This document shows positions 23,422-28,672 of a DNA stretch of 64,000 bases, piece after piece. How positions within the stretch are numbered: the first letter of the stretch is position 1; each line of letters starts with the position of its first letter. The stretch comes from Saccharopolyspora gregorii. Its GTDB lineage: Bacteria; Actinomycetota; Actinomycetes; Mycobacteriales; Pseudonocardiaceae. Under the pieces are notes generated by a model. That model was not told where the DNA came from. It searched no databases and saw only the letters and a program-made list of their open reading frames with translations. The translations under genes and the position numbers were made by a program. The stretch lies in NCBI RefSeq assembly GCF_024734405.1, contig NZ_CP059556.1:248001-312000 (forward strand), read 5' to 3'.

Positions 23422-24486
23422 TCAGGCGCGGCGGGCGCGCACGTACTGCTTCGGCCAGATGTTCTCGGCGTGCAGCTCGTCGGCGGCGTGCAGCGGCCAG
23501 TGCGGGTCGCGCAGCAGTTCCCTGCCGAGCAGCACCACGTCCGCCGAACCGGAGGACACGACCTCCTCGGCCTGCTGCGGCGAGGTGATCAGGCCGACGG
23601 CGCCGGTCGGCACCTCCGCCTCCAGCTTGATCTGCCGCGCGAACCGGGTCTGGTAGCCGGAGCCGACCGGGATCCGCGCGTCGGGCACCGCACCGCCGGT
23701 GGAGGCGTCGACGAGGTCCACGCCGTGCTCGGCCAGCAGCCGGCTCAGCCGCACGGAGTCGTCGCCGGTCCAGCCGCCCTCGACCCAGTCCGTCGCGGAC
23801 AGCCGCGCCAGCAGCGGGCGTCCCGCGGGCCACACCTCGCGCACCGCGTCGACGATCTCCAGCAGCAGCCGGACCCGGCCGTCGAAGTCACCGCCGTAGC
23901 GGTCGGTGCGGTCGTTGACCAGCGGCGAGTAGAACTGGTGCGCCAAGTAGCCGTGCGCGAAGTGCAGCTCGACGACCTCGAACCCGGCTTCCGCGGAGCG
24001 GCGCGCGGCGTCGGCGAACTGCTGCGGGATCGCGGCGACCTCGTCCTCGGTCAACGCGCGGGGGGCGGCCAGCGCGCCGAAGGCGTTCGACGTGGAGCTG
24101 ACGGTCTGCCAGCCGCCGTCGGCCGCGGGCAGCGTGCCGTCGCCCTCCCACGGGGCCGTGGTGGAGGCCTTGCGGCCCGCGTGCGCCAGCTGCACGGCCG
24201 GGGTGGAGCCCTGCTCGCGCAGGAAGTCGGTGATCCGGCGCCAGGCCGTGACCTGCTCGTCGTTCCACAGCCCGGTGTCGGCGGCGCTGATGCGGCCTTC
24301 GGGTGCGACGGCGGTGGCCTCGGCCATGACCAGCCCGGCGCCGCCGACGGCGAACTGGCCGAGGTGCACCAGGTGCCAATCGGTCGGCACCCCGTCCACG
24401 GCGGAGTACTGGCACATGGGGGACACCCAGACGCGGTTGCGGATCTCGGTGGCGCCCAGCTTCAACGGGTCGAAGAGATGGCTCAT
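23422..24486 (-). CDS. NADH:flavin oxidoreductase, Old Yellow Enzyme (YqjM/NamA-like)
   Basis: A 354-residue FMN TIM-barrel enzyme. It begins SHLFDPLKLGATEIRNRVWVS, then PMCQYSAVDGVPTDWHLVHL, the YqjM-class Cys motif; HAGRKAST holds the substrate-side region; and HFAHGYLAHQFYSPLVN near 180 is the family signature. It would reduce activated C=C bonds using NAD(P)H. ATG 24484-24486 is chosen because homology begins there; an in-frame start 17 codons upstream has no support. Divergent from the small peptide gene. Confidence 0.9.
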   Translation of the reverse strand: MSHLFDPLKLGATEIRNRVWVSPMCQYSAVDGVPTDWHLVHLGQFAVGGAGLVMAEATAVAPEGRISAADTGLWNDEQVTAWRRITDFLREQGSTPAVQLAHAGRKASTTAPWEGDGTLPAADGGWQTVSSTSNAFGALAAPRALTEDEVAAIPQQFADAARRSAEAGFEVVELHFAHGYLAHQFYSPLVNDRTDRYGGDFDGRVRLLLEIVDAVREVWPAGRPLLARLSATDWVEGGWTGDDSVRLSRLLAEHGVDLVDASTGGAVPDARIPVGSGYQTRFARQIKLEAEVPTGAVGLITSPQQAEEVVSSGSADVVLLGRELLRDPHWPLHAADELHAENIWPKQYVRARRA

Positions 24487-24773
24487 GACACCCATGACGC
24501 AGTTGCACGCGCGGGTATTCCGCGCTGAGCGGAACAACGCGCGAGACGTGGGTCACCCGCGTACCCGCCGCGGCTGGGAACCCGCTGGGCGGCGGCCGCG
24601 CGCCTCCCGGGAATCCGCGACCCCGGCGGAACCTCCGGTTCGCACCCAGTTCGTTCCCAGGGAATTGGCAGCGCATTCGTGTCGATTCCCGCCGAATTGC
24701 GCCGGTAGTTTCGTTCATGTCGGCGCCGAACGGCCCGGCGAAATCAGAGAAGAGAATCGACCAGGAGGTCACC

Positions 24774-24866
24774 ATGGGATTCCCCATTCCGGTTCCCGGC
24801 AAGCGCCCGCACTTCCCGCGCCCCGAGCAGCCCGCCCCGGGCCGGCCGCAGCAGCCGCGGAAGTGA
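24774..24866 (+). CDS. 30-codon proline-rich cationic peptide
   Basis: A short frame with an excellent ribosome site (AGGAGGT four bases before ATG). The product has 30 residues, 10 of them Pro (every 2-5 residues), with seven basic residues (counting His) and one Glu. Landmarks are MGFPIPVPG at the start, KRPHFPRP at 10-17, and a GRPQQPRK end. No signal peptide, leader or Cys is seen. Composition and PRP motif recall insect and mammalian proline-rich antimicrobial peptides. An ABC exporter begins 83 bases downstream in the same direction, so an exported peptide is a reasonable inference, not proven. Confidence 0.6.
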   Translation: MGFPIPVPGKRPHFPRPEQPAPGRPQQPRK

Positions 24867-24873
24867 CTCCGCA

Positions 24874-24914
24874 CCGGAGGGTCGGCGGCGTCCGCATCGC
24901 CGCCGCCCCTCCGG
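24874..24914 (+). terminator. Hairpin between peptide and exporter genes
   Basis: CCGGAGGG-CGGCGGCG pairs with CGCCGCCG-CCCTCCGG (one mismatch, 7-base loop), starting 7 bases after the peptide stop. There is no T-tract, so partial termination or mRNA protection of the peptide message is more likely than a full stop. Confidence 0.6.
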
Positions 24915-24949
24915 GCGTTCCGCGCGATCGCGCACTGGAGAGGTGAATC

Positions 24950-26770
24950 ATGACCGCTGCGCCGGGGATCCGCGAGATCTTCGCCCGGTTCCGCCCGCAC
25001 CTGCGCCCGGAACGGGCCGGACTGCTGGTCGCGGGGGTGCTGCTGGTGGTCGCCGCGCTGGCCGACACCGCGGCGATCTGGATGTTCATGCTGATCACCG
25101 ATGACGCGCTGGCCGCCGGCAGCCTCGACGCCTTCTGGGCGCCGGGGGCGGCCTGGCTGGGCATCGCGGTGGTCGGCGCGCTCGCCTCGTTCGGCGGGGC
25201 CTACCTCTCCGCGCGCGCGGCGGAACGATTCCTCGTGCGATTGCGCGCGCACGTCTTCGCGCACGTCCAACGATTGTCGCCCGATTTCTTCGCGCGCCGG
25301 AGAACGGGAGATCTCGTCGCCCGGATGTCCGGTGACGTGGAATCGGTGGAAAGGCTCGTCGCCTCCGGAGTGGTGGAAACGGGAACCGCTCTTTTCGGCG
25401 TCGTGCTGTACGCGGGGGCCGCGCTGTACCTGCGCTGGGACCTGGCGCTGCTGTCCTTCGCGCTCGCGCCCGCCTTCTGGCTGGTGGCCCGGAAGTTCTC
25501 CGCCGGGATCCGCGACGCCTCCCGGGCCGAGCGCGCCGCGAACGGCGAGATCGCGAGCACCGTCGCGGAAGGCCTCTCGCACGTCGAGCTGGTGCAATCC
25601 GCGAACCAGCAGCAACGGCAGGACGCGAAGCTGCACGCCGCCTCGATGCGCTGGTTCCGCGCCAAGCTGGTGGAGGCGCGGCTGTCCTCGACGTACGCGC
25701 CGCTGGTCACCGTGGTCGAGACGGTGTGCATCCTGCTGGTCATCGGCGTCGGGGTCTGGGAGATCTCCGCCGACCGCATCACCATCGGGGGCCTGATGGC
25801 CTTCGCCGCCTACATCGGCTACCTGTACCCGCCGCTGCAGGACCTGGGCCGCATCACGATGGCGGTCACCGCCGCCCGCGCCGGGGCGGAACGGCTCGTC
25901 GAACTGCTCGACGCGCGGCCCGCGGTGGTCGACGCCCCGGACGGCACCGCGCAGCTGCCGCCGGGTGGGCGCCCCGGCCGCGCCGTCGAGTTCGACCGCG
26001 TCGCCTTCCGGTACCCGCAGGCGGCGGAGCACGCGCTCCGCGACTTCCGGCTGGCCATCCGGCCCGGCGAGTTCGTGCTGGTCACCGGGCCCAGCGGGGT
26101 GGGGAAGTCGACGCTGGCGAAGCTGCTGCTGCGCTTCTACGACCCGGCGGCGGGGCGGGTGCTGCTCGACGGGGCAGACCTCACCCGGCTGCCGCTGCAC
26201 GTGGTGCGCGACCAGATCGCGTTCGTCCCGCAGGAGGCGGACGTGCTGCACGGCACCGTCGCCGAGAACATCGCCTTCGGCCGCCCGGACGCCACCCCGG
26301 CCGAGGTCGTCGCCGCCGCGCGGGAGGCCGACGCCGACGAGTTCGTCCGCGCCCTGCCGGAGGGTTACGAGACGGTCCTCGGCGAGCGCGGCGCGCTGCT
26401 GTCCGGCGGACAGCGCCGCCGCATCGCCATCGCCCGCGCGGTGCTGCGCCGCACCCCGGTGCTGGTGCTCGACGAACCCACGAACGGCCTGGACGCCGAG
26501 TCGAAGGCCAACGTGGTCGCGCCGCTGCGCAAGCTGTCCCGCACCCGCACCACCATCCTGATCAGCCACGACCCGGAACTGGCCGAGCTCGCCGACCGGG
26601 TGGTGGTGCTGCGCGGCGGGCGGGTGGCCGAACCCGCGCGCCCGCGGAGCCGCGTGCTCAGCGGCGAGCTGCCCGTCCCGGCGGCCGACGACCGGCCCAC
26701 CGTGCGGCTGCACCGCCCGTGGCCCGCCGGGCTCACCGATCCGCTGCGCGCCCGTGGTGGCCGCGCGTGA
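24950..26770 (+). CDS. ABC exporter, fused membrane and ATPase domains
   Basis: A 606-residue half-transporter. Six membrane helices lie in about residues 1-310. The ATPase domain follows with Walker A GPSGVGKST near 380, Q-loop FVPQEADV, signature LSGGQRRR near 484, Walker B VLVLDEPT near 504 and H-loop ISHD. This layout is typical of exporters of lipids, drugs and peptides; no N-terminal C39 peptidase is present. GGAGAGG precedes the ATG. Codon choice in the stretch near 25220-25400 is less GC-extreme than around it. The upstream proline-rich peptide is the obvious candidate cargo. A homodimer is expected since no partner gene is adjacent. Confidence 0.88.
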   Translation: MTAAPGIREIFARFRPHLRPERAGLLVAGVLLVVAALADTAAIWMFMLITDDALAAGSLDAFWAPGAAWLGIAVVGALASFGGAYLSARAAERFLVRLRAHVFAHVQRLSPDFFARRRTGDLVARMSGDVESVERLVASGVVETGTALFGVVLYAGAALYLRWDLALLSFALAPAFWLVARKFSAGIRDASRAERAANGEIASTVAEGLSHVELVQSANQQQRQDAKLHAASMRWFRAKLVEARLSSTYAPLVTVVETVCILLVIGVGVWEISADRITIGGLMAFAAYIGYLYPPLQDLGRITMAVTAARAGAERLVELLDARPAVVDAPDGTAQLPPGGRPGRAVEFDRVAFRYPQAAEHALRDFRLAIRPGEFVLVTGPSGVGKSTLAKLLLRFYDPAAGRVLLDGADLTRLPLHVVRDQIAFVPQEADVLHGTVAENIAFGRPDATPAEVVAAAREADADEFVRALPEGYETVLGERGALLSGGQRRRIAIARAVLRRTPVLVLDEPTNGLDAESKANVVAPLRKLSRTRTTILISHDPELAELADRVVVLRGGRVAEPARPRSRVLSGELPVPAADDRPTVRLHRPWPAGLTDPLRARGGRA

Positions 26771-26827: not shown

Positions 26828-28672
26828 TCAGGCGCGGCCCACCGCCCGCCGCGCGAAGTGGATCTCCGCGGCGACCTGGCGCAGGGTCTCCGCCACCACC
26901 AGCGAGCCGTGGCCGGCGTCGTAGCGGTAGAACTCGAACGGCACCTCCCGCTGCGCCAGCCGGTCCAGGTAGTTCAGGATCTGCTGGATCGGGCACCGCG
27001 GATCGTTGTCCCCGGCCAGCACCAGCACCGGCGCCCGCACCTGGTCCACGTAGGTCAGCGGCGAGCACTCCTCGTAGACCGCGGGAACCTCCTCCGGCGA
27101 ACCGCCGAACAGCGCCCGGTCGTAGGCGCGCAGCGGCTCCATCTCGTCCGCGTACGCCGAGACGTAGTCGGCGACCGGCACCCCGGCGACACCGCCCGCC
27201 CACCGCTCCGGCTGGGTGCCCAGCGCCAGCAGCGTCAGGTAGCCGCCCCAGGACGCCCCGGCGACCACGCTCAGCTCGGGCGTGGTGAGCCCGTCCCGCA
27301 CAGCCCAGTCGTGCACGTGCGCGACGTCGGCGAGCTCGGTGAGGCCCGGCCTGCCCTCGATCGCGTCCCGCCACGCCGAGCCGTAGCCGGTCGAACCCCG
27401 GTAGTTGATCTCGACGACGGCGAAGCCCGCGTCCAGCCACGCCGCCCGGTACGCGGAGAACCGGTCCTCGTCCGCCGCGTGCGGCCCGCCGTGCAGGTTG
27501 AACACCGTCGGCACCGGCCCGTCGCCCGCGCCCTCCGGCCGGGACACCAGCGCGTGCACCGACTCGTTCGGGCCGTGCGGGACGGGCACGAACACGTCGC
27601 GCACCGGCTCGGACCCCGGCGGCCGCTCCCCGGGCGGGGTCAGCAGCACCTCGTCGGTGCCGTCCGCGCGCAGCGTCCGCACCAGCGACGGCGTCGCCGC
27701 CGACGACCACGAGTACTCGACCGAGCGGTCCGGGCGCACCGAGGCGCCGCCGACGGTGCCCGCGGGCGTCGCCAGCTCCACCAGCTCGCCCGTCTCCAGG
27801 TCGTAGCGGTGCATCGTGGTCCGCGCGTGGTGGGTGTGCGCGATCAGCAGCGCCGTGCCGTCCGGGTACCAGTCCGCGGACACCTCACCGGGCAGGCCGA
27901 GGTCGATCTCCCGCTCGGTGTCGGCCAGCACGTCCCAGATCAGCAGTTCTTCGCGTCCGTGCCGCTCGTGCAGCACCAGCAGCCGCGGATCTCCGGCGAC
28001 CGGCGCGAAGTCCAGCGCGTCCAGCCCCTTCCCCGGCCCGTCCCACTTGTCCGCGACGGTCGCGGCACCGTCCACCCGCAGCACGCGCAGCGCCGGGTGC
28101 CTGCTGTCGCCGTGCTCGGAGTGCGACAGCACCAGCAGGCTCTCGTCCCAGGACAGCGCGGACAGGCCGCCGTCCTGCTCGTGCTCGTAGACGACCTCCG
28201 GGGCTCCGCCGGCGCGGGACACCCACACCGTCACCCCGTCGTCGGTGGACATGCCGACCCCGGTCACCGTCGGCCCGAGCTCCAAGCCGGCCGGGTAGCC
28301 GGGGTGCGTCCCGGGCAGCGCCGGTTCCGGTTTCCCGCCGCTCGCGGCGAAGTCCTCGCTCACCCAGGAACCGAACTCGTCGCCGTCGGTGTCGTCGAAC
28401 CACCACACCCGCGCGCCGTCGGCGGACAGCGTGCCGTGGAACGTCCCGTTCGGACGGTCGGTGACCTGGCGGTGCGCACCGGAGTCGCGGTCCCACGCGT
28501 ACAGCTCCCAGGTACCGCTGGCGTTGGAGACGTACAGGCTGCGGCCCGGCGCTTCCCGCGCCCAATCCGGCAGCGACACCCGAGGTGCGCTGAACCGCGC
28601 TCGCCACCGGGCCTCCCGCTCGGCGTCGTCGAACAGCTCTTGCGGAATCTTCGCGTCTGGGTACTCGCTCAC
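26828..28672 (-). CDS. S9-family serine peptidase (prolyl/acylaminoacyl peptidase)
   Basis: A 614-residue cytoplasmic peptidase. Residues 40-350 form a WD-like beta-propeller; the catalytic alpha/beta domain follows with NLHGGPHAADEDRFSAYRA near 390, nucleophile GASWGGYLTL (Ser near 473), Asp in VLAGDNDPRCP and His in YDAGHGSLV near 594. The family cleaves short peptides, often after Pro or removing acylated N-terminal residues. It is convergent with the ABC exporter; a link to the proline-rich peptide is tempting but rests on proximity alone. Confidence 0.88.
   Translation of the reverse strand: MSEYPDAKIPQELFDDAEREARWRARFSAPRVSLPDWAREAPGRSLYVSNASGTWELYAWDRDSGAHRQVTDRPNGTFHGTLSADGARVWWFDDTDGDEFGSWVSEDFAASGGKPEPALPGTHPGYPAGLELGPTVTGVGMSTDDGVTVWVSRAGGAPEVVYEHEQDGGLSALSWDESLLVLSHSEHGDSRHPALRVLRVDGAATVADKWDGPGKGLDALDFAPVAGDPRLLVLHERHGREELLIWDVLADTEREIDLGLPGEVSADWYPDGTALLIAHTHHARTTMHRYDLETGELVELATPAGTVGGASVRPDRSVEYSWSSAATPSLVRTLRADGTDEVLLTPPGERPPGSEPVRDVFVPVPHGPNESVHALVSRPEGAGDGPVPTVFNLHGGPHAADEDRFSAYRAAWLDAGFAVVEINYRGSTGYGSAWRDAIEGRPGLTELADVAHVHDWAVRDGLTTPELSVVAGASWGGYLTLLALGTQPERWAGGVAGVPVADYVSAYADEMEPLRAYDRALFGGSPEEVPAVYEECSPLTYVDQVRAPVLVLAGDNDPRCPIQQILNYLDRLAQREVPFEFYRYDAGHGSLVVAETLRQVAAEIHFARRAVGRA

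Follow-up and report, generated by a model that had tools for sequence, protein, structure and literature searches.

Short peptides served by dedicated ABC exporters are known among the unmodified and leaderless bacteriocins. RiPP loci, such as those of lanthipeptides and lasso peptides, combine a precursor, an exporter, and an adjacent modifying enzyme; their precursors join a recurring N terminus to a variable remainder, and a hairpin lies 3′ of the precursor gene. The known proline-rich antimicrobial peptides are, to our knowledge, animal peptides. In Bacillus subtilis, a leader peptide, bmrB, precedes the ABC exporter BmrCD; there, the terminator is reported to lie inside the short frame, with translation acting as the signal (PMC4191407).

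We analyzed a 64,000-nucleotide stretch of Saccharopolyspora gregorii DNA (the window; part of genome G000) in which a 30-codon gene stands directly before an ABC exporter gene. From its sequence and surroundings, on which our account of the unit is based, the 30-codon gene is likely to be the precursor of a short disordered peptide carried out of the cell by the adjacent exporter. The window represents the Pro-rich branch of a peptide family that spans several orders and two classes of the phylum. These peptides are probably an undescribed family made for export: a search of open-access literature yielded no description of such a peptide-exporter system, subscription papers and preprint servers being largely outside the scope of that search.

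The likeness to unmodified and leaderless bacteriocins lies in a short, mostly cationic peptide and an exporter in which no C39 peptidase domain was found; the peptides showed no double-glycine leader, and a dedicated exporter adjoins the peptide gene in 77 of 80 surveyed loci. The differences are the low-complexity sequences, a recurring N-terminal Phe, and tailoring-type enzymes in two branches. The RiPP features named above recur, with a putative precursor gene and an adjacent enzyme of a modifying type, but no enzyme of a known RiPP class and no leader protease was found here, and putative tailoring enzymes, whose function is presumed from their kind, occur in two branches only (at 20 Gly-Trp loci and 23 kinase loci, and not in the Pro branch). 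The Pro branch resembles the proline-rich antimicrobial peptides in composition and charge, whereas the family as a whole is linked through its exporter to peptides without proline. VioD, the violacein indole hydroxylase, is the nearest solved relative of the monooxygenase encoded at Gly-Trp loci; its substrate is a small molecule, while the neighbor here is a gene for a Trp-rich peptide, the putative substrate. What is shared with bmrB-bmrCD (PMC4191407) is that a short frame immediately precedes an ABC exporter and that stem-loops are present; here, however, the hairpin lies 3′ of the stop codon, each clade has its own peptide composition, and there are partner enzymes and tandem peptide genes. 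The plan of precursor, exporter, and tailoring gene is a known one, and what is new is the low-complexity presumed cargo, which differs from clade to clade while the exporter type stays the same.

The peptide gene and its setting in the genus

The peptide gene occupies positions 24774 to 24866 of the forward strand, with its ATG at 24774 and its stop codon at 24864 to 24866, and encodes MGFPIPVPGKRPHFPRPEQPAPGRPQQPRK. A Shine-Dalgarno sequence, AGGAGGT (24763 to 24769, forward strand), matches at 7 of 7 positions and ends 4 nucleotides 5′ of the ATG, in agreement with the good ribosome site claimed in the preliminary description. That description had also called the peptide one-third proline and cationic, with a KRPHFPRP core, and the composition bears this out (10 Pro among 30 residues, or 33%; net charge of +5). 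The next gene (24950 to 26770, forward strand) begins after a gap of 83 bases, as had been stated, and encodes an ABC exporter of 606 amino acids, assigned by domain matches and by the exporter tree. It had been taken for a full exporter; it is half-size, with one ABC_membrane and one ABC_tran domain in a single chain as in the ABCB/MsbA type, and would be expected from its family to act as a dimer. No C39 peptidase domain was found in its 606 residues, and none of the 25 NCBIfam matches listed was an equivalog at its cutoff.

All six genomes of the genus examined (G000 to G005) carry a peptide gene in front of the orthologous exporter. Those of G003, G004, and G005 were detected by sequence similarity (78 to 85% over 27 residues), and those of G001 and G002 by inspecting the DNA ahead of the orthologous exporter; in the latter two the C-terminal part is changed, MGFPVPVPGKPRPPKPPKPPKPEPGRPPHK. 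The ratio dN/dS was below 1 in 10 of 10 pairs, at 0.11 to 0.26 for the six pairs among G000, G003, G004, and G005 and 0.34 to 0.56 for the four pairs with G001, each pair offering only 3 to about 12 synonymous changes. Twenty-seven further close pairs of peptide genes gave 0.03 to 0.97, the values nearest 1 falling among Gly-Trp repeats, so that the ratio was below 1 in all 37 pairs. On these alignments, the window peptide gene appears to be under purifying selection in the genus. We rejected a chance open frame in view of the conservation, dN/dS, controls, and position. Elsewhere in the same genome (G000), a 38-base stretch with an 87% match was found.

A degenerate pattern for the Pro-rich N terminus, run over 390 genomes of the taxonomic family, returned 14 short ATG frames preceded by a Shine-Dalgarno sequence in 12 genomes (six of the same genus; five of genus g36, two of them with two copies; and one of genus g21), its other matches lying in unrelated frames. 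An intact exporter follows the Pro-rich frame in 11 of the 12, the exception being the g21 genome, G216. These results uphold the short frame as a genuine, conserved gene that goes with the exporter, and loss of the frame among relatives, or its presence mostly apart from the exporter, was not found. At the G216 locus (L321, G216:C5), the Pro-rich peptide gene is intact and the exporter behind it is broken, running into an unrelated gene.

The gap between peptide and exporter folds into a strong hairpin (24870 to 24917, forward strand) with no T-run after it. Hairpins of −41 to −51 kcal/mol are predicted here in all six genomes of the genus, and the hairpin is kept in G001 and G002 although the sequence is unrelated. 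Folding was also compared with shuffled sequences across related loci: 66 of 85 stretches 3′ of the peptide stop had z scores of ≤−2, versus 5 of 83 upstream stretches (83 counted of at most 85 used) and, downstream of other genes, 24 of 98 stretches (98 counted of 100 drawn). A short frame and a hairpin ahead of an exporter, which is the layout of an attenuator, are present at those 66 loci at this threshold.

The divergent neighbor (23422 to 24486, reverse strand; start inferred) encodes an Old Yellow Enzyme-type flavin oxidoreductase, and the convergent neighbor (26828 to 28672, reverse strand) encodes a peptidase of the S9 prolyl-oligopeptidase family, both assigned by domain and family matches. 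Genes of both kinds lie near 6 of 6 Pro-type loci. We considered them as tailoring or immunity genes of the Pro branch and rejected them in that capacity, since they lie as far as 2.7 kb upstream and 8.7 kb downstream, and other genes intervene. The Old Yellow Enzyme gene is probably there by plain synteny; the S9 peptidase gene is treated likewise, and any link of it to the peptide is hypothetical. The monooxygenase and kinase families of the Gly-Trp and kinase types were absent within 7 kb at 6 of 6 related loci of the Pro branch.

One exporter clade with peptides that differ by branch

Relatives of the exporter (E ≤ 1e-120) were found in at least 77 of the 390 genomes of the family and in at least 19 of 396 genomes sampled from the whole phylum, the source genome included; these counts are lower bounds because at most three candidates were scored per genome. 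The clade extends to other orders and to another class of the phylum. A separate contig scan with the exporter was dominated by the common ABC motif, and the 80 loci it retained are distant (23 to 38% identity). In a tree of 80 exporters and four outgroup rows, the family forms one clade, and peptide type tracks exporter branch. The source genome holds two members of the clade (1,296 and 474 bits), well apart from its next ABC exporter (273 bits). The second lies at G000:C1:2318729-2320387 on the minus strand and is preceded by MGKGSSVFVYVNNNRRRKHGWGNGWGHGWGWGHGWGWGHGWGHGWGHGCGCK. This second unit (L080, G000:C1:2317327-2320700) consists of a Gly-Trp-rich peptide, an exporter, and a VioD-like monooxygenase. 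The product of the window's 23422 to 24486 gene resembles the C-terminal half of NF006101, a bifunctional salicylyl-CoA hydroxylase/oxidoreductase, and the L080 monooxygenase resembles its N-terminal half, possibly by coincidence.

A peptide frame was found upstream of the exporter in 77 of 80 loci surveyed with long flanks, in addition to the window: in 59 of the 60 loci L080 to L139 (L136 being unclear) and in 18 of the 20 loci L294 to L313. The candidates were chosen partly by eye. The survey took in 64 loci from part of the family matches listed (L080 to L139 and L310 to L313) and 16 of the 18 new matching genomes in the phylum sample. A clear peptide gene was not found at three surveyed exporters (L136, L297, and L309), nor at two short-flank loci, namely, L235, where the match starts at residue 93, and L237, which is the same exporter as L309. 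The arrangement also occurs in public records of Nonomuraea gerenzanensis (NZ_LT559118.1) and of the Streptomyces nigrescens plasmid SNP1 (NZ_AP026074.1); the PLSDB table, which is incomplete, lists no gene at the arrangement in these records.

The resulting table lists 85 loci, whose peptides (84 of them distinct) are 25 to 61 amino acids long. An ATG start is used in 76 and a Shine-Dalgarno score of at least 5 of 7 is reached in 83; the net charge is positive in 79, negative in five, and neutral in one. Composition differs by branch, the types being Pro; Gly-Trp; poly-Arg with Ser, Thr, or Asn; Lys-Ala-Pro; His-Cys; Arg-Ser or His-Ser; and Asp-Arg. Ten representatives searched against Pfam and NCBIfam matched no family, the one NCBIfam match (E = 0.66) being noise. 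Composition statistics were computed for peptides of 75 of 79 loci (L081 and L082 are not in the table, and L136 and L297 have no peptide; for L101, the nearer frame was replaced by a further-upstream frame that resembles its kin). A Phe residue occurs at positions 3 to 7 in 55 of the 75, compared with a mean of 13.3 and a maximum of 21 in shuffled sequences, which places the constraint on the peptides at the N terminus. Eight loci carry tandem peptide genes (L083, L084, L086, L294, L301, L305, L308, and L313).

Short frames preceded by a Shine-Dalgarno sequence are common in these genomes, and we compared exporter loci with other genes of the same loci under one automatic rule. An exporter was called in 58 of 60 long-flank loci, 50 of them with at least 150 free bases upstream; of 560 control genes, 298 had as much free space. 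Such a frame preceded 46 of the 50 exporters and 125 of the 298 controls (Fisher P value of 7e-12). In 17 of 50 versus 7 of 298, at least half of the frame consisted of its two commonest residues (P value of 6e-11, both Fisher values being uncorrected for kinship), and the frame entropy was ≤3.0 bits in 20 of 50 versus 11 of 298. No such frame was present in the free intergenic space before any of 11 other ABC exporters of the source genome; a low-complexity frame before another ABC exporter of that genome (L238) lies inside a long open frame.

The acidic residues of the exporter membrane domain rise with peptide charge in the raw data (rho of 0.66), but with independent contrasts the correlation was 0.01 (77 tips; L308 omitted as a long branch). 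Charge covariation was accordingly rejected as evidence, and since the effect vanishes with contrasts there is no sign of coevolution between exporter and cargo.

Enzymes encoded beside the exporters

A flavin monooxygenase gene lies beside the exporter in 20 of 79 loci, and these are exactly the 20 Gly-Trp loci. Thirteen of the genes are on the minus strand and seven on the plus strand, with the L138 copy about 1.7 kb away. The nearest solved structures are those of VioD (PDB 8gqr, E = 1e-41; 3c4a, E = 6e-39); in NCBIfam, the N-terminal half of salicylyl-CoA 5-hydroxylase (NF006101) ranks above VioD, both being below their cutoffs. A Trp content of at least 13%, a cutoff set after the data had been seen, is reached by 20 of 20 monooxygenase-linked peptides and by 1 of 55 others. 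We also read 20 loci where the monooxygenase stands away from the exporters listed. At L274, L275, and L277, a Gly-Trp peptide gene adjoins the VioD-like monooxygenase with no exporter in 11 kb; L276 and L286 have a whole or partial exporter; and the other 15 (L278 to L285 and L287 to L293) have neither a Trp-rich peptide nor an exporter.

At 23 of 79 loci, of the poly-Arg, Arg-Ser, and His-Ser types, a Ser/Thr kinase gene lies downstream on the same strand, and kinase and monooxygenase never occur together (0 of 79). The combined Ser and Thr content averages 18% in 21 kinase-linked peptides and 5% and 6% in the rest. The kinases inspected retain the lysine and a catalytic loop of the HLDLKP or HLDLNP type and keep the aspartate of the DFG position as DLN, DLS, or DLG, except for L307, where this stretch reads X. 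The kinase operon occurs in the taxonomic family of the source genome and in families of another class. The exporter tree needs one change for the monooxygenase (support of 82, not starred) and three for the kinase, so the match between enzyme and peptide composition amounts to few events. A second, PknB-like kinase gene lies on the opposite strand about 0.6 to 1.8 kb upstream of the peptide gene at five kinase-type loci, L109, L115, L121, L126, and L099.

A probable secreted product and its alternatives

In the export pathway that we propose, the peptide gene would be transcribed first and the hairpin would set its message off from that of the exporter, either lowering read-through or steadying the upstream message, such that far more peptide than exporter could be made. 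The N-terminal stretch (M-x-F... or F-x(n)-P) may serve as the part recognized by the exporter and the low-complexity remainder as the active part. Before export, Trp residues of the Gly-Trp branch could be tailored by the VioD-like monooxygenase and Ser/Thr residues of the kinase branch by the kinase, while the Pro branch would leave the cell with no dedicated tailoring enzyme. Outside the cell, the peptide might, like a bacteriocin, antagonize competitors, and the exporter would double as protection for the producer. This last step is the weakest, and we put it forward with clear reservation. A role in the envelope, in adhesion, or in a matrix is nearly as likely; we place antagonism first and a surface or matrix function second. 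The suggestion that the exporter might be a lipid or drug pump unrelated to the peptide runs against the genomic context, though the peptide is only its presumed cargo.

The reading that survives best beside this one is itself a variant of the export reading and differs in the role of the exported peptide. Disordered peptides rich in charged or aromatic residues (Gly-Trp and His repeats, poly-Arg, and phosphorylated Arg-Ser) would serve as structural material at the cell surface, forming a coat, a glue, or a condensate. We regard it as possible, if doubtful; the low-complexity repeats, the clade-wise exchange of chemistry, and the VioD-like and kinase partners suit it, and lengths of only 25 to 61 amino acids are very short for such a role. 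A wider picture, to which we lean less than halfway, has low-complexity exported peptides throughout the phylum, one exporter clade with its cargo chemistry swapped (Pro, Gly-Trp, poly-Arg, His-Cys, Arg-Ser, and Asp-Arg), and matching tailoring enzymes that would yield Gly-Trp repeats hydroxylated on Trp as well as phosphorylated Arg-rich peptides, perhaps with a condensing or adhesive role outside the cell rather than an antibiotic one.

The main rival to export, and a serious one though we think it unlikely, is a regulatory leader peptide: ribosomes pausing on Pro- or Arg-rich codons would alter the folding of the hairpin and so switch the expression of an exporter that is a drug or stress pump. 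Poly-Pro and poly-Arg are known to be slowly translated, which favors this rival, as does the order of short Shine-Dalgarno-led frame, hairpin, and exporter. A published leader peptide before an ABC exporter is reported to follow exactly this logic (PMC4191407). The Gly-Trp, His-Cys, His-Ser, and Asp-Arg peptides, however, are not classical stall motifs; the partner enzymes suit the peptide side chains; Gly-Trp peptide and monooxygenase genes occur together with no exporter (L274 and L275); the constraint is N-terminal, not C-terminal; and the window hairpin has no T-run after it. Tandem peptide copies also fit a product better than a switch.

It had been proposed that the peptide resembles apidaecin, oncocin, and Bac7; on that view, the Pro branch would be a bacterial counterpart of the proline-rich antimicrobial peptides, entering rival cells to block their ribosome tunnel. 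The ten Pro-type peptides do have the composition (24 to 47% Pro, net charge of +3 to +7, and RP or PRP spacing). As stated, the proposal does not hold, because sister exporters carry Gly-Trp, poly-Arg, His-Cys, Arg-Ser, and Asp-Arg peptides, and tunnel binding cannot then be the function of the family; it can apply to the Pro branch only. Even there we consider it improbable, since the conserved part is MGFPIPVPGK, in which we know of no motif of these antimicrobial peptides. In the least probable of the four alternatives, the peptide would remain inside the cell as a small accessory or regulatory subunit and adjust the activity of an exporter of lipids or drugs. The strict pairing with one exporter clade would suit this; against it, the peptide composition is entirely different from one clade to the next, yet the exporters can still be aligned, and there are tandem copies and Gly-Trp units with no exporter.

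If the peptides are exported, as we favor, genomes could be searched with the exporter clade for a peptide family that escapes gene callers and RiPP miners: its genes have 25 to 61 codons, are of low complexity, and mostly lack a standard RiPP enzyme. The clade-wise swap of chemistry under one exporter would then offer a direct test of peptide recognition by ABC exporters; two predictions would also follow, namely, a peptide hydroxylation that is as yet untried, from the pairing of Gly-Trp peptides with a VioD-like enzyme, and a phosphorylated secreted peptide, from the poly-Arg/kinase operon. Should the leader-peptide rival be true, this would be an unusually widespread attenuator family.

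Genes for a histidine kinase and a response regulator lie within about 3 kb upstream of the exporter at 13 of 79 loci (L298, L299, L301, L302, L305, L306, L090, L092, L094, L096, L097, L098, and L311) and may encode a regulator of the unit.
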